Origin: Acidobacteriota bacterium | GTDB lineage: Bacteria > Acidobacteriota > Blastocatellia > Pyrinomonadales > Pyrinomonadaceae | Reading direction: 5' to 3' | Assembly: GCA_003222895.1 (NCBI GenBank) | Contig: QHXI01000054.1 | Location: 1 to 64,000, forward strand | DNA: 64,000 nucleotides | Part shown: positions 2-60,283 of the stretch, in pieces | Numbering within the stretch: position 1 is the first letter of the stretch | How the letters are laid out: every line of letters begins with the position of its first letter | Made by a program: the position numbers and the translations under genes | The notes under the pieces: model-generated | The model's input: only the letters and a program-made list of their open reading frames with translations | The model's database searches: none | Told to the model about the DNA's origin: nothing

Positions 2-3000
2 AAGATTCAATTCACGATCAAGGTCGGCGATCTCTCGAACATTCCGCCAGGATGGCGTTGGGCGGTTCGCTTTGGAGTAACGAAGAATGGTGTGCTGCAG
101 CATCCGCCAACTGACGCGACGGGTGGCGCTTCGGAAGACTACTTCGTTTCGATGGTTACTTCGGACGGGGCCGCTCCGACATTCACCTGGGGCGTAACCA
201 GCGTGCCGCAGAACGCAGCGCGCGTGTTCACGACGAAGGGCACGCTCGATTCAGCGAGCAACGCAAACCCGAACGGCACGATCACTCTAGTGATCCCGAA
301 GTCGCTCATCAACAATCCGGGCCCCGGTGATGCGATCACCGGAATGCTCGGCAGCGTGCGTGCGACTGTGCCTTCGACTCTGCCCGGCACTGGCGGCACG
401 AACGAAACCATTCCCGACAGTACCGGCGGCGGCAGCTACACGCTGCGTCCCGCGAACTTGTGCCTGCTGAACACCGCGCCGGTAGCGCATTTGACTGCTG
501 ATGTCGATCACGGTGACAAGCCACTCACAGTGCAGTTCGATGGCAGCGCCTCGAACGATCCTGATTCGATCGACACCATCGCCAGTTACACCTTCAACTT
601 TAATGATGGTGGCGACGATGTGACTCAAACGGCTCCAGTAATCGTGCACACGTTTACGGAAGGCGGCGAGTACGACGTCAAGCTGGTGGTAACGGATTCG
701 CGTGGCAAGGTGAGTTCGAACACTGCTCACTTCATAGTCGAGGTGGAAGGTGCGGCGCCAACTCCGACGCCAACGCCAACTCCGACTCCGACGGCGACGC
801 CTACTCCAACTCCAACTCCAACGCCGACGCCCGCGTGCGCGACCTCGGGCACGTTATCGCCGACAAACGCAAGCATTCCGTTCTGCGGCGGTCCGTTCTC
901 GGTCTCGAATCCGTCTTCGCCGACCGGCGACAATCCACCGGTGTGCATCAACGGAAACTGCGGCCAATTCGCGCTGACAGTTTCGATTCCGGCTGGTGAC
1001 ACGAACCACTATGTGGTGACCGTCAACGCTGGTTGGACCAATAGCAACTCAACAAGCTCAACTCAGGGGAACAACACGAGCGATTACGACCTGTACGTTT
1101 ACCAGCCCGACGCAACTGGGCCGCGAACTGCCAAGGGCGCCGGTAACACGAATCCTGAGGTGGCCGCGTTCGACGGATTGCTGGGCGCAAGAAACTACAC
1201 AATTTACGTCGTGCCTTACGACGTACAACCTGATGTGCCTTACGCGGGTACGATTAGGTTGGCGGTGCCACCGGCACCGAGCCCGACGCCGACGCCAAAC
1301 GGGACACCGCCGCCGGCGGCAACGTTTGGGCACAACACGCTGGCTGATTTCTCAGCCGTCGGTGGTGAGCCATTCATCCGCGTCGATAAGCAGGACAACA
1401 TCTTCGTGTCGTCGCCATTCGGCTTCAGCACGACGGTGAGCCTGCTTTGGAAGTCATCTGATCACGGACGCACGTTTATTCCGCTCGGCACGCCCATCGT
1501 GCGCGACGCAGTGACGAGTCCGGGTGGTGGCGACACGCACATGGACTTTGACGATCGGAACCGGCTCTATTACTCGGACCTTTCAGCCGGATGCACGACT
1601 GCGGCAGTATCGGAAGATAACGGCAATACCTTTCCGCTCGATCGGAACAATCCGCTGGTATGCATTGGCCAAGGCGAAGATCCGTACGGTGCCGAAGACG
1701 ATCGCCAGTGGATCGCGGCTTTCGGCGATGGCATTGCGTATTCAACTGTCCGCAATCTCGCCGTCAAGTACGGTGCCCACAACTTCCATATCGCCAAGAC
1801 TGCCGACGCCGGCAAGAGCTGGCATACGCAAATGATTGGTGACGTGGGCCAGTCTGGTCCGCTCGAGGTCGACAAGACGAAGCGCACGCTCAGCGACGGG
1901 CGGCAGGCGATCCTGCTCTACCAGATTTACTACACGGGCAGCACGCTCAAAGTCATGCGCATTGCGGATGTCACTGACACAAATCCGACGCCCGCGTACA
2001 TCGTCGACAATCTGACGATTCCTACTCTCGGCAGCGTGAGCGTGGCGACCGTCTTCCCGGTCCTGAGCATCGACAAGGCCGGCAACCTTTACGTTGTTTG
2101 GTCGGATGGTTCGACGATCAAGATGGCGGCGTCAACCGATCGCGGAGAACACTGGACGCCACCGGCGCAGGTGAATCCATTCTCGATGACTGGCATGAAC
2201 ATCATGCCGTGGATCGTTGCGGGTGATCCCGGACGTCTCGATATAATTTGGTATCACACGAGTGGCGGCAACAACGAGAACAGCAGATGGGACATTCACA
2301 TGGCCCAGACACTGAATGCGTTGGACAACTATCCGTCGTTCACGACAAACAAGGTAAACGAGAACACGATTCACACGGGAGAGATTTGCCTCAACGGTCT
2401 TGACTGCGACATCGCGACTTTGAGCGGTACGCCACGCGATCGCAGCTTTGCCGAGTTCCCGTCGATCGATATCGATTCGAAGGGCGCGGCCTACATCACT
2501 TACAACGACAGCACAAACCAGTTGCCGGCGCCGTACGTGATGATCGCCCGGCAAACCGGTGGCGCCAGTCTAATCAATTCGGTTGGATCGCTGACGCCCA
2601 CGGGCGGCAACGTGACGATCGCTTCGCCGAATGCGGGCGACACGATCAGAACGACTTCGATGACTTTGAGTGGAACACACACGCTCACACCGAAGAACTT
2701 CGATCGCGACGATGCGGCCGACGCAAAGTTCCCGGATCACGGCGCGGTCATCGGCAGCAACATTCCGGCACTCGATCTGAAGTCGGTTTCGCTCAGCGAC
2801 GACTCAACTTCGGTGACCGTCAACATGCAGGTCGCCGATTTAACAACGACTGCGTTGGCCTCGGCTCCGGCGTTATCGGGCGGCGACGGCGTGCTTTATC
2901 TGACACAAATGCACTCAGGCAACACGGTGTACTGGGTCGGCGCCGAAGTGCGCGGCGGCACGGCGCGGTTCCTAACCGGCACACTTAGCTCGATCAATTC

Positions 3001-9924: not shown

Positions 9925-12091
9925 GGCCGACAACGGAGGCTCGGCAGTAACGAATTACTCGATCTTCCGGGGAACCGTCAGTGGCGGTGAAGTATTTCTG
10001 GCAAGCTCAGGAACCGCAGCCAGCTATAACGATGCGACGGCTGACGCGAATACAACTTACTTCTATCGAGTCAGCGCGACGAACACCGTGGGAACTTCCT
10101 GCGGCAGCAACGAAGTGAAGTCCGTGCCGATAGGCGAGTCACAATGCACTGGTCTTCAGGAAGTAATCGATCCAACGGGAGATCAAAAATCTGCTCCGGG
10201 CAATGCCGACCTCGATGTTACCGAAGTACGAGTTGCCGACAATGTGATTAGTGGAAAGGAAAAGATCTCGTTCAAGTTAAGAGTAGCGAACCTCGGCACG
10301 TTGCTACCCAACCGTCAATGGCGCGTGATCTGGAATTATCCGGTTCCGTGCGCCGTGTGCGATCCGGTGACTCCAGGCGGAACGCCATTCACCGGTTCGT
10401 ATTACGTCGGAATGAACACCGACAGTTCCGCAACGCCCGTCGTTTCGTTTGAGTATGGAACTGTGACTACGGTTGAAGCAGTTCCCGCGAATACCGCCGC
10501 TCCGAACAAGATCGGCGCCGCCGATGCCGAGTCGAGTGTCAACCAGGTGACAGGAATCATCACGATCGTTGTATCGGCCGATAAAGTCGCAAACCCGAAA
10601 GTTGGAGACGTAGTCGGCTCTTTAGTCGGTCGCACTTTTGCAGGCAATGGTAATAGTACTTTGTTGTCGTCATCGTCGACTGACACGACCAGTTCGACAG
10701 GCGCTCAAGATCCTTTTACCGGTAAAGCCTATCGACTGGTCGGAAATGCGGCGTGTGTCACAGCGCCTCCGCCCACTCCGACACCTAGTCCAACGCCAAC
10801 GCCGACGCCTACACCAACACCCACGCCCACGCCTACTCCAACGGCCGTGTTCCAATTCAACTCGACCACGTATGCCGTTCAGGAAGCGGTGACGGCGGTT
10901 AACGTCACGGTCATCCGAGGAGGTGTGACGAGTACGACCGCAGCAGTCGATGTTGGAAGCGCGGACGCGACCGCGAAACAGAAAGGCGATTACACCTACG
11001 TGATCGCGCATCTCGTGTTCGCGCCGAACGAAACTCAGAAGACGTTCCAGGTGCTGATCAGCGACGACGGTTACACGGAAGGGACGGAATCGGCGACCCT
11101 GCTATTGCAAAATCCGACGAATGGCACGCTTGGTTCGCCAAACGCAGCCACGCTTCAGATCATCGATAACACACCGGAGACGAACAGCAATCCGATCGAC
11201 ATTTCACGAACGTTTGTGGGCCAGCACTATCACGATTTTCTGTATCGCGATGGCGATCTACAAGGTCAGGATTTTTGGACGAACAACATCGAGAGTTGCG
11301 GCGCCAACGCGCAATGTCGACAGGTCAAGCGCATCGACACTTCAACGGCGTTCTTCCTTTCGATCGAATTCAAGGAGACTGGTTACTTCCTGATTCGCGC
11401 GCACAAGGCCGCGTTTGGCAACGACAAAACGGTCCCGCGCTACACCGTGTTTCTCCGCGATCAGCGCGAGATCGCCGACGGTGTAATCGTCGGTCAGGGC
11501 AATTGGCAGGATCAACTCAACACGAATAAGCAGAATTATCTTGTCGATTTCGTGACGCGTCCTGAATTTACTTCGAAGCCGTCGTTCGCTCCGGGAGTTT
11601 CAGCAGCGACTTACGTCGATGCGCTGTTCGCAAATAGCGGCGCCACACCAACGACGGCCGAGCGCAACGCGGCGATCTCGGCTTATGGCAGCGGCGATAC
11701 TGCCGGACGAGCCGCGGCTTTGAAGAGCGTGATTGAAGGCGGTTCTGTTTTCAACAAGCTCTACAACGACGCATTTGTGTTGATGCAGTATTACGGTTAC
11801 CTGCGACGCAATCCCGACGATGCGCCTGACAACAACTTCAGCGGATACGATTTCTGGCTGGCGAAGCTGAATTCATTCAGCCAGCCGGGCGAAGACATGC
11901 GTGACGATTCGCAGGCCTTCAATCGCGCCAAGCGCGCCGAGATGGTGCGGGCGTTTCTTGAATCGGTTGAATATCGCGAACGGTTCTTTGGCCGCTCGAC
12001 CGGCAATCAATTCGCGCCGCCGGATGAAGGCGCGATGACGAGAATTATTAAAGGCGTTATGCGCTTCGCTTTCTTCGGCGATGTTGGGTGA
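9794..12091 (+). CDS. 3' part of the split BNR protein: FnIII, TP-linker, Calx-beta, DUF4214-like
   Basis: This is the continuation, in another frame, of the gene starting at 8077. The first in-frame ATG is at 9860, and the frame itself is open further upstream but is noise before 9794. Domains: fibronectin type III (NLTVGRDGGVAKLTWSEADN; nt ~9870-10130), a beta domain with GIITIVVSADKV like the one in the 2-4015 protein, a TPTP linker (nt ~10774-10845), a Calx-beta domain (nt ~10850-11180, ending LQIIDN), and a DUF4214-like helical tail with two YRD/LRR...F-W-x-x-x-L units (FLYRDGDLQGQDFW; YLRRNPDDAPDNN). Calx-beta and DUF4214 tails are typical of large cell-surface proteins. No independent start signal is visible, so it is probably not expressed separately unless the split is an assembly error. 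Confidence 0.7.
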   Translation, partial: TIARQSGGKRLLAASDPPSQPTMPGVPNLTVGRDGGVAKLTWSEADNGGSAVTNYSIFRGTVSGGEVFLASSGTAASYNDATADANTTYFYRVSATNTVGTSCGSNEVKSVPIGESQCTGLQEVIDPTGDQKSAPGNADLDVTEVRVADNVISGKEKISFKLRVANLGTLLPNRQWRVIWNYPVPCAVCDPVTPGGTPFTGSYYVGMNTDSSATPVVSFEYGTVTTVEAVPANTAAPNKIGAADAESSVNQVTGIITIVVSADKVANPKVGDVVGSLVGRTFAGNGNSTLLSSSSTDTTSSTGAQDPFTGKAYRLVGNAACVTAPPPTPTPSPTPTPTPTPTPTPTPTPTAVFQFNSTTYAVQEAVTAVNVTVIRGGVTSTTAAVDVGSADATAKQKGDYTYVIAHLVFAPNETQKTFQVLISDDGYTEGTESATLLLQNPTNGTLGSPNAATLQIIDNTPETNSNPIDISRTFVGQHYHDFLYRDGDLQGQDFWTNNIESCGANAQCRQVKRIDTSTAFFLSIEFKETGYFLIRAHKAAFGNDKTVPRYTVFLRDQREIADGVIVGQGNWQDQLNTNKQNYLVDFVTRPEFTSKPSFAPGVSAATYVDALFANSGATPTTAERNAAISAYGSGDTAGRAAALKSVIEGGSVFNKLYNDAFVLMQYYGYLRRNPDDAPDNNFSGYDFWLAKLNSFSQPGEDMRDDSQAFNRAKRAEMVRAFLESVEYRERFFGRSTGNQFAPPDEGAMTRIIKGVMRFAFFGDVG

Positions 12092-17645: not shown

Positions 17646-18110
17646 ATGAACGACGGAAAGAAGAAGGCTCTGATTGTGGTCGATGTGCAGAATGATTTTT
17701 GCCCCGGCGGCTCACTCGCCGTGGCCCACGGCGATGAAGTCGTGGCGCCGCTGAACAATCTCATCAAAGAATTTCTCGATCGCCGCGAACCGGTTTACAA
17801 AACGCGCGACTGGCATCCGGCGCAGACAAAACACTTCGCGGCTTACGGCGGAACGTGGCCCGTTCACTGTGTCCAGGGAACGCAGGGTGCTGCATTCCAT
17901 CCCGACTTAAGCGATGATCCGCGCATCACGATCATCTCGAAAGGCATCGACGAAAGCGCCGATGGCTATTCCGGATTCGATGGCACGAATCTGGCCGACC
18001 TGCTGCGCGAAGAAGGCGTGAAAGAAGTTTGGGTCGGCGGACTCGCAACTGATTATTGTGTGAAGCACACCGTGCTTGATGCGATGAAAGAAGGATTCGG
18101 CAGGAGCTGA
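17646..18110 (+). CDS. pncA: Nicotinamidase, C-terminally truncated
   Basis: Isochorismatase-fold hydrolase converting nicotinamide to nicotinate in NAD salvage. The catalytic triad is present: Asp13 (VVDVQNDFCPGG), Lys99 (ISKGID) and Cys138 (ATDYCVKH); the metal site KTRDWHP is also present. At 154 residues it is 40-50 shorter than usual. After VLDAMKEGF the frame fails (GRS, stop), while the +1 frame reads AGAEVVGDAAKAAGVS and then stops at 18148-18150, immediately before the inverted-repeat element at 18160. The last strand and helix are therefore missing, and activity is doubtful. The ribosome site is GGGAG, 7 nt before ATG. pncB, the next enzyme of the pathway, follows beyond the element. 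Confidence 0.85.
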   Translation: MNDGKKKALIVVDVQNDFCPGGSLAVAHGDEVVAPLNNLIKEFLDRREPVYKTRDWHPAQTKHFAAYGGTWPVHCVQGTQGAAFHPDLSDDPRITIISKGIDESADGYSGFDGTNLADLLREEGVKEVWVGGLATDYCVKHTVLDAMKEGFGRS

Positions 18111-18311
18111 AGTTGTTGGCGATGCAGCGAAGGCCGCAGGCGTGTCCTAAAGGTTTGATAGTCCGCGAAGCGGACATTCCGAGAATAGCCCAGCGATTTA
18201 TCAGCCGCCAATCAACCGAAACAGTTAAGAACGAGCCTAGGTGGGGCCTACCCGGAAGTTGGTCTTTTCGGCCAATTTCCTAAAGTCTAATGGGAATGGA
18301 TCATCCATTTC

Positions 18312-18680
18312 GAAGCGGGACTGATCCCCGCCAAGGCGGGACTGATCCCCGCCGAAGCGGGACTGATCCCCGCCGAAGCGGGACTGATCCCCGCCGAGGC
18401 GGGACTGATCCCCTCCGAGGCGGGACTGATCCCCTCCGAGGCGGGACTGATCCCCGCCGAGGCGGGACTGATCCCCGCCGAGGCGGCGCTGATCCCCTCC
18501 GAGGCGGGACTGATCCCCGCCGAAGCGGGACTGATCCCCGCCAAGGCGGGACTGATCCACTCCGAGGCGGGACTGATCCCCTCCGAGGCGGGACTGATCC
18601 CCTCCAAGGCGGCGCTGATCCCCTCCGAGGCGGGACTGATCCCCACCAAGGCGGGACTGATCCCCGCCAAGGCGGCGATC
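18312..18680. repeat. Tandem array of 17 hairpin units, 21 bp each
   Basis: Consensus unit GAGGCGGGACTGATCCCCGCC with variants (GAA/AAG starts, CCCCTCC ends, GGCGCTGAT in copies 9 and 15). Each unit can fold by itself (GGCGGG with CCCGCC). 17 full copies run to 18668, followed by a partial one. Because 21 is a multiple of 3, open frames appear on both strands. Confidence 0.92.
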
Positions 18681-18737
18681 AGCGATCACCGGGCTCAAGC
18701 ACAGCATCCCTGGGACTCGACGCAATCCTCAAAAGGA

Positions 18738-18792
18738 AGCCCGCGAACGGGCCGACAGAAACTGTCGCCCCCTTCGCGGGCTCTGACTTTTG
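18738..18792. terminator. Long hairpin near the right end of the element
   Basis: Outer arms AGCCCGCGAA / TTCGCGGGCT (18738-18747 with 18773-18782) and inner arms CGACAG / CTGTCG with a 3-nt loop, followed by a short T-run at 18788-18791. It could terminate transcription rightward. Confidence 0.5.
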
Positions 18793-18849
18793 CTGAACCA
18801 AGTTCCTAAAGCGCTGGGCTATTCTCACTCGTCCGCTACGCGGACTGAT

Positions 18850-19083: not shown

Positions 19084-19251
19084 TTCATTCTCTCCTTTGA
19101 CGAAAGCTTTTAGGTCTCAAATCGCTTCACGCGACGCGATCAAAGCGGGAAGAGTTGAAGGGGAATCGGCCTAAGAATACTACTGAAATCGAGGTTCGAG
19201 AAGGCCTGACCGTCAATTTGAATTTTGGGCCAACGATGGCCCGGGAGTATC

Positions 19252-20721
19252 ATGCGAGGTCAAATGGGCACGCTGAACTTCGATCGTTATCACGCCGCGA
19301 TGGGCGATGCGTCATACAAAGACGCGGCGCGCGTACACGATAAACCGTTGAGTGAAATGATCGCGACGTTCTATGTGACGCAGCGTAAGCTGCCGTTCGC
19401 GCCGGTGCTGGGCCATGAACGCCTGATTCGTCTGCTGGTTGACAGTCAAATCGATCGCCCGCGCCTGCGTTTTCTCGAACAGGATCGCGGCGGCCTGCAA
19501 CGATTCGCGAAAGCGATTGAGGATATTCAGTTCGCCGGGAGCATTCGCGCGGTTAAGCCCGGCACGATCATGTTTCCGCAGCAACCAATCGCCGACATCA
19601 CCGGCAGATTCGGCCTGACACAGGCGCAGGAGATCAAATTCGAACATGCTTTCGATCTGCCGATGACGACCGCCAGCACCGCGATGCAGTTTCGCATGGC
19701 CGCCGGCAAGCGTTGGCTGTCTGATTTTTCTTTGCGGCGCAATGGCGACATCGAACGCGCCGTTGACATTGCTACCTACGCTTTCATCGGCGGCTTCAAC
19801 GACACCTCGAATATGGAAGCCGCGCATCGCCTCGACATTCCCGCGGTCGGCACCGAAGCGCATTACTGGCAGCAAGCCTATCTCGAATATATGTACGAGC
19901 CGGAGATTGAGTCGCGCACGGGCCAACCGAAACACTTCGAGCAAGTCGCATTCGAACGTTGGCTCGACGCGAATCCAAACGGCACGACGCTGCTGCTCGA
20001 CACGATCGATGTTTACATGGGCGCGGTGCATGCGGCGATGGCCGCGACATCAAGTGACGTGCGCCGCAAAGCATTCAAAGGTTTTCGCGTTGACTCTGGT
20101 GATTTGGCGGAACTTGGAAAATGGTGCCTGGAATTTTTCGAAGCGAACGGCTTGCATGGTTTGCGTCCGAATCTCACCGGCGATCTCGACGTCGAAAAGT
20201 TGAAGCGCATCATCAGAGAGTTCCCGGAAGCCGCGGGTTTTGGCATTGGCACAAAGCTTTCGAGCGAAGTTAAGAATGTCGCCGGCGTGATATTCAAAGC
20301 CTGCGTAATCGACGGCCGAGCGACGCTGAAGGCTTCTAATTCGCTCGACAAAACGACGCTGCCCGGGAACCTGCAAGTTTTTCGGGGGATCGATGCGCGC
20401 GGAAATTACCTGGCGGATGTAACGGGATTGGATGACGAGCAGATCGAAATTCAAGACGCGGTGAATGTTGAGCGCCTGCTGCAACCGTTCTGGGAGAACG
20501 GACAGCATTCACCGATTCCTTCGATCGAAAAGCAGAAAGCCTTCGTCGCCGGTCAGATGCAACGCTTTTCCGATCTTCACAATTATCCAACGCGCCTGAG
20601 CGATCGATTGACAGCGCTGCGCGACGATCTCACGGCGCAAATGCGCGCCGACAATTCCGGTTGGGAAAAAGTTTTGAAGCTACCGGAAGAAGTCCCCGAC
20701 GAACTGGTGCAAGCCAAATAG
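19252..20721 (+). CDS. pncB: Nicotinate phosphoribosyltransferase
   Basis: Converts nicotinate and PRPP to nicotinate mononucleotide (Preiss-Handler branch of NAD synthesis). The 489-residue length fits the family. Seen: the N-terminal DRYHAAMGDASY substrate region, the phosphorylatable-His motif (GTEAHYWQQ), and the RVDSGDLAEL phosphate-binding strand. ATG 19252 (GGGAG 4-9 nt before it) is chosen over a GTG-like frame start at 19225 because the conserved region begins at once after it. It lies downstream of pncA on the same strand, separated by the inverted-repeat element and a small reverse gene, so an ancestral pncA-pncB salvage cluster seems to have been interrupted. Confidence 0.88.
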   Translation: MRGQMGTLNFDRYHAAMGDASYKDAARVHDKPLSEMIATFYVTQRKLPFAPVLGHERLIRLLVDSQIDRPRLRFLEQDRGGLQRFAKAIEDIQFAGSIRAVKPGTIMFPQQPIADITGRFGLTQAQEIKFEHAFDLPMTTASTAMQFRMAAGKRWLSDFSLRRNGDIERAVDIATYAFIGGFNDTSNMEAAHRLDIPAVGTEAHYWQQAYLEYMYEPEIESRTGQPKHFEQVAFERWLDANPNGTTLLLDTIDVYMGAVHAAMAATSSDVRRKAFKGFRVDSGDLAELGKWCLEFFEANGLHGLRPNLTGDLDVEKLKRIIREFPEAAGFGIGTKLSSEVKNVAGVIFKACVIDGRATLKASNSLDKTTLPGNLQVFRGIDARGNYLADVTGLDDEQIEIQDAVNVERLLQPFWENGQHSPIPSIEKQKAFVAGQMQRFSDLHNYPTRLSDRLTALRDDLTAQMRADNSGWEKVLKLPEEVPDELVQAK

Positions 20722-59575: not shown

Positions 59576-60283
59576 TGGAGCGCCCGCATCCTTCCGGGCG
59601 GATCGCAGGCATCCTTGCCTGCGCTCATTTCTTTCGAAACCCCGCACTGCTAAACGGCCAATCCTCGGGCCTGTCGCAAAGATTCGCCCTGACGGGATTG
59701 TTTTCGATGTAACTGACAGTCTTCGCAAACTGCCGTGCGTTACGAATATATCTGTCGAAATATTCTTTCTGCCAAAATCGACCTGAACGATCAAGCATCT
59801 TGTTGGCTTCACTTGAGCTGAACGACTTAACTGAATGCATGATGCTGGCAAGTGACTGTCCCGCGCACGGAGTGCACAACACGTGCACATGATTAGGCAT
59901 TACCACCCACGCAATGAGTCGATACTTGTGCCGATCATGAAACAGAAGCGCGTTCTGGACCATTGCGGCGACATCCTGATCTTGCAAATAGCAACTGCCG
60001 TGGCCCTGATCGAGGTCCGCTTCAACTCGCCGACGCATGATTGACTCTGCCTCTGAGGTTGTTGCGGTCTTCAATTCTTCTTTCCAACGAATCAACACCT
60101 CACGTGGCAGTGAATCGTGCAATCTGAAGGTGATGAATTGAGCGAGTTCGCCGCCGTCGAAATGAGGAAGATAGCCGCGGCTATGCCACCCAAGTTGCGA
60201 CTGCGATTGTGGGAGTTTCGCTTTCATAAAGTTTATGCGCGCAAGGATGCGCGCGAACCGCCCGCAGGGATGCAGGCGCTCCA
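59576..60283. mobile_element. REPtron: RAYT gene framed by inverted REP pairs
   Basis: Left end 59576-59625 (TGGAGCGCCCGCATCC .. two small hairpins) and right end 60237-60283 are inverted copies (complement of the right end: TGGAGCGCCTGCATCC ..). Each end has two REP-like hairpins (for example GCCCGCATCCTTCCGGGC and GCAGGCATCCTTGCCTGC). The unit sits precisely between two convergent genes, whose stops are 2 bp and ~9 bp away. Related solo copies are at 52514-52536 and 62251-62343. Confidence 0.85.
59625..60227 (-). CDS. REP-associated tyrosine transposase (RAYT, Y1_Tnp)
   Basis: 200 residues from ATG 60227 (MKAKLPQSQSQLGWHSRGYL). The HUH motif is NHVHV (WVVMPNHVHVLC), and the nucleophile Tyr is in WQKEYFDRYIRN. 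The ending VSYIENNPVRANLCDRPEDWPFSSA is typical of RAYTs. These single-strand nucleases cut and join REP hairpins. The gene reads through into the left inverted end at its stop. A longer start at 60284 would lie in the right end and is disfavoured. Confidence 0.9.
   Translation of the reverse strand: MKAKLPQSQSQLGWHSRGYLPHFDGGELAQFITFRLHDSLPREVLIRWKEELKTATTSEAESIMRRRVEADLDQGHGSCYLQDQDVAAMVQNALLFHDRHKYRLIAWVVMPNHVHVLCTPCAGQSLASIMHSVKSFSSSEANKMLDRSGRFWQKEYFDRYIRNARQFAKTVSYIENNPVRANLCDRPEDWPFSSAGFRKK

Follow-up and report, generated by a model that had tools for sequence, protein, structure and literature searches.

A REP-dimer frame with a nested leader-array module downstream of pncA: a probable composite of two repeat systems in a soil acidobacterium

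The element that lies downstream of pncA, a vitamin-recycling gene, in this soil acidobacterium is best explained as a composite of two repeat systems, in which a conserved leader followed by a 21-bp array (i.e., the leader-array module) is nested in a REP-dimer frame. We place the probability of this reading at roughly 0.6. The frame occupies positions 18161 to 18845 of the window (i.e., the whole 64,000-nucleotide stretch of DNA that was analysed; Table 1). A sequence-only reading had proposed inverted ends around a 17-copy array of 21-bp units, and both structures proved real. The inverted arms are 20 nt long and 95% complementary (19/20 bases), TRF reported a period of 21 between 18311 and 18675 (17.4 copies, 91% matches, 0% indels), and the array pattern matched 17 times in the array versus 0.56 matches expected over the whole window, so that chance is excluded.

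Table 1. Features of the element and its neighbours in the window
Feature	Position	Strand	Remarks
pncA (isochorismatase-fold nicotinamidase, PF00857)	17646-18150	+	Pfam; orthologues of G001, G002, G004 and G005
Left RF01687-like end	18161-18200	.	Palindrome 18161-18175 and outer arm (plus loop) of hairpin B (second hairpin) 18181-18200; without inner arm
Leader (~90 bp)	18203-18292	+	Conserved at eight loci in two species
Unit 1, seed hairpin GGAATGGATCATCCATTTCGA	18293-18313	+	7-bp stem, 5-nt loop, 2-nt spacer; compensatory changes across loci
Array, 17 units, consensus GGCGGGACTGATCCCCGCCGA	18314-18670	+	Exact 21-bp period
Module tail GGCGGCGATCAGCGATCACCG	18671-18691	+	Partly common to the frameless copy at C151
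Inner inverted pair of frame	18738-18782	.	GCCCGCGAACGGGC-CGACAG / CTGTCG-CCCCCTTCGCGGGC; type present inside other RF01687 dimers
Right RF01687-like end	18807-18846	.	Outer arm 18807-18826 and palindrome 18831-18845; without inner arm
Small cysteine-containing ORF, 77 aa	18850-19083	-	3' end marks the right flank; similar sequence close after pncA in G001 and G004
pncB (nicotinate phosphoribosyltransferase)	19225-20721	+	Near pncA

Each arm of the frame adjoins a palindrome of the type GTCCGC-NNN-GCGGAC (GTCCGCGAAGCGGAC on the left, GTCCGCTACGCGGAC on the right). The sequence-only reading had tied its proposal to further copies of these ends, and such copies exist: the end pattern, with up to two mismatches, was found at 15 places in the genome and at none with the reversed control, which excludes recurrence by chance. 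Many of the 15 places, when read out, are inverted pairs with the order palindrome A, GA(G/A)AATAGCCCAGC with the remainder of hairpin B, an inner pair that includes GACAGA/TCTGTC, B', and A'. The Rfam family RF01687 (Acido-Lenti-1) has 97 matches at E <= 1 in this genome, 17 of them above the cut-off, and the array-bearing sister loci on contigs C60 and C144 pass the gathering cut-off (40.8 and 40.2 versus 37 bits). The two ends in the window gave no match to the RF01687 covariance model at E <= 1 and did not reach the gathering cut-off; judged from their sequence, they are RF01687-like and truncated, the inner arm of the second hairpin being missing on both sides. Since the ends are half-hairpin variants of this kind, the window frame may be dead. 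At least 20 inward-facing RF01687 pairs occur in the genome. In the list of 20, into which the window's own pair was entered by hand, 16 pairs span 184 to 366 bp and four are long dimers, two of which (C125 and C158) hold a Y1 transposase gene and two of which (C60 and C42, the window locus) hold a 21/42-bp array.

The sequence-only reading had no transposase in view. The genome contains seven IS200-type Y1 genes (PF01797) above the Pfam cut-off, and one such match is located inside the window (59697-59939, minus strand). The Y1 genes at C125 (L043) and C158 (L046) lie between RF01687 matches in inverted orientation, the gene at C56 (L044) lies between similar double palindromes (by inspection), and the gene at C35 (L045/L119) lies between blocks of tandem repeats. 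The RF01687-type units around the genes at C125 and C158 are diverged subtypes relative to the window's ends. Three of the Y1 proteins were checked against Pfam. By eye, the C125 protein has an H-x-H motif and a helix that bears a tyrosine; the C158 reading frame stops early. Because RF01687-like units are abundant, paired inward, and flank Y1 (RAYT-like) genes, the frame is read as a non-autonomous REP dimer (BIME/MITE-like) of the RF01687 family. The MITE-like character proposed earlier is thereby supported, the ends recurring as inverted pairs, related pairs flanking Y1 genes, and congeners having a short gap at the locus.

In a table, Weinberg et al. (2010; PMC2864571) list RF01687, from Acidobacteria and Lentisphaerae, as a probable RNA that is probably not cis-regulatory. 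The window's ends are like this family in sequence and in two-hairpin architecture, whereas the units here form inverted pairs and the window copies lack the inner hairpin arm. Since inverted pairs, some of them around Y1 transposase genes, fit the end of a DNA transposon, the data suggest that the "Acido-Lenti-1 RNA" is a transposase-associated DNA repeat, at least in this genome. Earlier work (Nunvar 2010, PMC2817692; Di Nocera 2013, PMC3733652) described RAYT genes between inverted REPs and, in Acidobacteria, tyrosine transposases with TIRs on either side (TIRYTs). The features in common with REP/BIME doublets with RAYT genes and with TIRYTs are inverted palindromic ends, a mostly short interior, a Y1 gene inside similar frames, and no visible target duplication. 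Unlike GTAG-tagged REPs, the ends described here are double palindromes with a TAGCCCA-type core, and, unlike REP/BIME doublets, a 21-bp hairpin array sits within one of the frames. The open-access literature yielded no paper that connects RF01687 with RAYT genes.

At the insertion site, the stretch between the pncA stop codon and the right-flank motif measures 710 bp in the window, compared with 27 bp in G004 and 78 bp in G001, with flanks too diverged for base-exact ends; the gene order in G004 is pncA, small reverse ORF, pncB. Among the checks proposed earlier, that for empty sites is answered by this short gap in G004 and G001, but no target duplication was seen at the frame by eye. Y1 transposases are not expected to generate target duplications. 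No second genome with the window locus occupied was found. The element had also been described as sitting at the broken end of pncA. It does adjoin the 3' end of the gene, beginning about 10 bp past the original stop codon, but the break is internal. The ORF terminates early at 18110, with about 83 bp missing near the 3' end and a resulting frameshift (a length derived from translated neighbours, in a region where the multiple alignment is poor), and the codons for the original C terminus, with the TAA stop (18148-18150), persist in another frame. Since this original gene end precedes the element, the element did not break pncA, and disruption by insertion was ruled out. The pncA genes of the congeners are intact; the deletion and frameshift in the window possibly reflect an assembly error or a pseudogene. 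Two other repeats were observed in passing: a palindromic CCCTCCCTNACGGTCGGGCTACTGCCCC-like repeat, intergenic at L030, L014, L187, L258, and L259, which at L187 fills the pncA-side gap of G001, and short repeats based on 6 bp (CCAACG/CGCCAA) at window positions 758-831 and 10770-10843, possibly within coding sequence.

Inside the frame, the leader (18203-18292) and the seed hairpin (18293-18313) form the conserved part of the module, which the sequence-only reading had not separated from the array. The leader contains a hairpin at 18254-18280 (GGAAGTTGGTC-TTTTC-GGCCAATTTCC), which, together with the stem of unit 1, is largely retained across eight loci. Unit 1 forms a full 7-pair hairpin (G-T allowed) in seven of the eight, with stems such as GGAATGG/CCATTTC, GGAACGG/CCGTTCC, and GGAGGGA/TCCCTCC. 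Overall, 96.4% of the cells in the unit-1 stem are paired and 10 cells changed on both sides, a result equaled by none of 500 shuffles and far above that of slid controls; since the sequences form three groups, this covariation represents few independent events. Covariation was absent from the internal units, where the register is kept and the pairing is no better than that of permuted 3' halves (P = 0.10 to 0.72). In the reading that we favour, visible constraint is limited to the hairpins of the leader and unit 1. With compensatory changes in unit 1 and none in the internal units, the array looks like a slippage expansion of a structured seed.

The leader-array module is also found outside the frame. 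The leader (i.e., the first 100 bp of the interior) and an array recur at C151:29488-30006 with 93% leader identity and no frame, and the congener G002 (a sister species, placed with the window genome in one genus) contains six copies, three of which were found with the first leader model and three of which, having a related leader, were found with the second. With the final leader model, itself built from these eight loci (the window, C151, and six in G002), each of them reaches E = 6.4e-15 or better. Units with a 21-nt period follow the leader in 8/8 loci, and their sequences are unlike: the window has GGCGGGACTGATCCCCGCCGA, while the G002 copies have GGAACGGATGAGCCGTTCCGA-like units and GGCGGTAGCGGCGGCCTCCTT. 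Because the copies at C151 and in G002 are frameless, the leader-array is a second, separable repeat module that was carried in or inserted into the frame; the earlier view of the array as part of the transposon-like element is largely refuted. In a collection of 84,980 species, the leader pattern was found only in one Blastocatellia MAG (palsa_120), and the array unit pattern was absent from that collection, which possibly does not include the window's own genome; the array as a common bacterial repeat was rejected on this count. Weak leader matches in other genera and at C42:94799 in the window's own genome were treated as chance or other hairpins, since those that were read out had no 21-nt array. 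The open-access literature likewise gave no description of the module, nor of palindromic 21-bp arrays from Acidobacteria.

The 21-nt period extends beyond this module. In 1.62 Mb of sampled sequence (lags 10 to 45), lags 21 and 42 were the only enriched repeat periods. Every lag scored at least six places, and six places recurring at lags 20, 21, 22, and 42 look like N runs; beyond this background, lag 21 occurred at 10 places, lag 42 at 11, and other lags at 0 to 2. In the lag-21 set, one place looks like a 7-bp repeat, one is of low complexity, and some loci had been fetched for a pattern or leader match. The survey covers sampled stretches; it was targeted searches that led to C151, C12, and C86b. 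Arrays met without array-directed targeting are those of the window, C60 (42 bp), C144, C86:13085, three in G002, and one in G028, although C60, C144, and C86 had nevertheless been fetched for RF01687 matches. A second 21-bp unit, GACGAAACCTCGTCGGGAGCT, makes up arrays at C144:7492-7864, C86:13085-13388, C86:66946-67318, and C12:22982-23076, the unit numbers being lower bounds because two arrays reach the contig end; among 162 genomes of the class, this unit was found only in this one. The array at C60:11928-12204 (L085) has a 42-bp (2 x 21) unit, CTTTGCTAACCTTCTGCGTGGCAAAGAAAGCTTTCTTGGTGA, and lies within an RF01687 dimer. Separately, two near-identical dispersed 42-bp arrays in G002 (L169:1246-1427 and L177:324-508) have long common flanks (97 to 99%) and appear to be a different 21/42-nt element. 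G028, of another genus, carries a degenerate 21-bp array (L218:257-413; AAACTCGATTACAGGAAGTAA, 7.5 copies), so that the period extends beyond a single genus.

Several other explanations were weighed against the composite. The frame and array might be a single mobile unit that spreads together, since 21/42-bp arrays are present in two of the four long RF01687 dimers and a third array (C144) lies about 50 bp outside a dimer. We consider this very unlikely: the arrays inside frames are unlike each other (C42 versus C60), and the frameless copies of the C42-type module at C151 and in G002 largely refute it. A still lower probability attaches to a protein-coding array, in which each 21-bp unit would supply the 7 codons of a heptapeptide (e.g., GGTDPRR). 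Long ORFs do span the array (18290-18796 on the plus strand, 168 aa; 18237-18725 on the minus strand, 162 aa), and the C151 array shows a synonymous excess. However, that excess occurs in one plus and one minus frame at once, at the same few sites; several frames are open simultaneously on both strands; arrays C144, C86a, and C86b have no synonymous excess; the ATG of the window ORF is missing in the G002 homologue; and Pfam matches were only sub-cut-off and of low complexity. With no synonymous excess in one consistent frame, heptapeptide coding is not supported.

The leader-array might instead be a functional noncoding RNA or mRNA leader, with the array as a string of hairpins in the transcript (i.e., a sponge, stabiliser, or terminator). 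The retained leader and unit-1 hairpins, with the compensatory changes in unit 1, are in keeping with such a role, as are the folding of the whole module, which is better than that of shuffles (z = -4.9), and the common tail with a hairpin 3' of the array in the G002 copies (by eye). Against it stand the internal units, which lack covariation, the weak signal of compensatory change in the leader hairpin, a covariation term for the leader plus unit 1 in five loci that was not favourable, and the absence of any Rfam match to the module; we regard this role as rather unlikely. A hammerhead-like or box C/D-like reading of the CTGA in the units was discarded, the core residues being missing (by eye only). 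We also hold it improbable, more so than an RNA role, that the array is a phased protein-binding array in which a dimeric protein is placed repeatedly on one face of the DNA. Iteron and centromere-like arrays of plasmid origins have palindromic units spaced by about 21 bp (i.e., two helical turns), and the arrays described here are like them in this spacing: the units are dyads, only lags of 21 and 42 are enriched, and the dyad register holds against slid controls. In contrast to those systems, however, the arrays occupy several chromosomal sites, a cognate gene is not found nearby, there are no replication or partition genes around the window array, and unit sequences are not common to the arrays. 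Because the units differ completely between arrays within one genome, a single binding protein is hard to reconcile with them.

Under the composite reading, the frame family, the Y1 link of related frames, the short gap in relatives, the separable module, the covariation of the seed hairpin, and the 21-nt enrichment in the sample are observed directly. We infer that HUH/Y1 transposases encoded in similar frames elsewhere in the genome probably mobilised the frame (18161-18845) in trans, in the form of single-stranded DNA. The module (leader, seed hairpin, and 21-nt array) occupies the position at which two sister frames have a transposase gene. The array probably grew from a palindromic 21-mer through rounds of slippage or unequal exchange, and it may have been re-amplified recently from one derived unit, since its units are near identical, have zero indels, and show no maintained pairing internally. 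The constant period of two helical turns could reflect either helical phasing (i.e., a protein on one DNA face) or a size favoured by hairpin-primed slippage; we favour slippage. The internal units would then have no role. Of the roles offered by the sequence-only reading, slipped-strand expansion is the best supported for the array, and a regulatory or structured-RNA role finds support in the leader and unit-1 hairpins only, where it is a candidate. Bacterial minisatellites and VNTRs are similar in their tandem units, high identity, and slippage-like look, and the near-identical units are only suggestive of minisatellite-type behaviour in the window; in contrast to minisatellites, exact 21-nt dyad units are found here behind a conserved leader and seed hairpin, and homologous leaders precede unlike units.

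A more far-reaching and tentative idea is that these loci represent an undescribed class of dispersed element, in which a leader and seed hairpin direct or permit arrays of a fixed 21-nt period with any unit sequence. Such a candidate class would, equally speculatively, keep its period and fold constant while its letters vary, and its function would concern DNA topology or RNA. The link between the RF01687 "RNA family" and transposase-flanking DNA repeats would alter the reading of its matches in acidobacterial genomes. Moreover, tandem arrays that have a common leader and an exact two-turn period but unlike sequences are a tractable case in which one can test what determines the period of bacterial tandem repeats.
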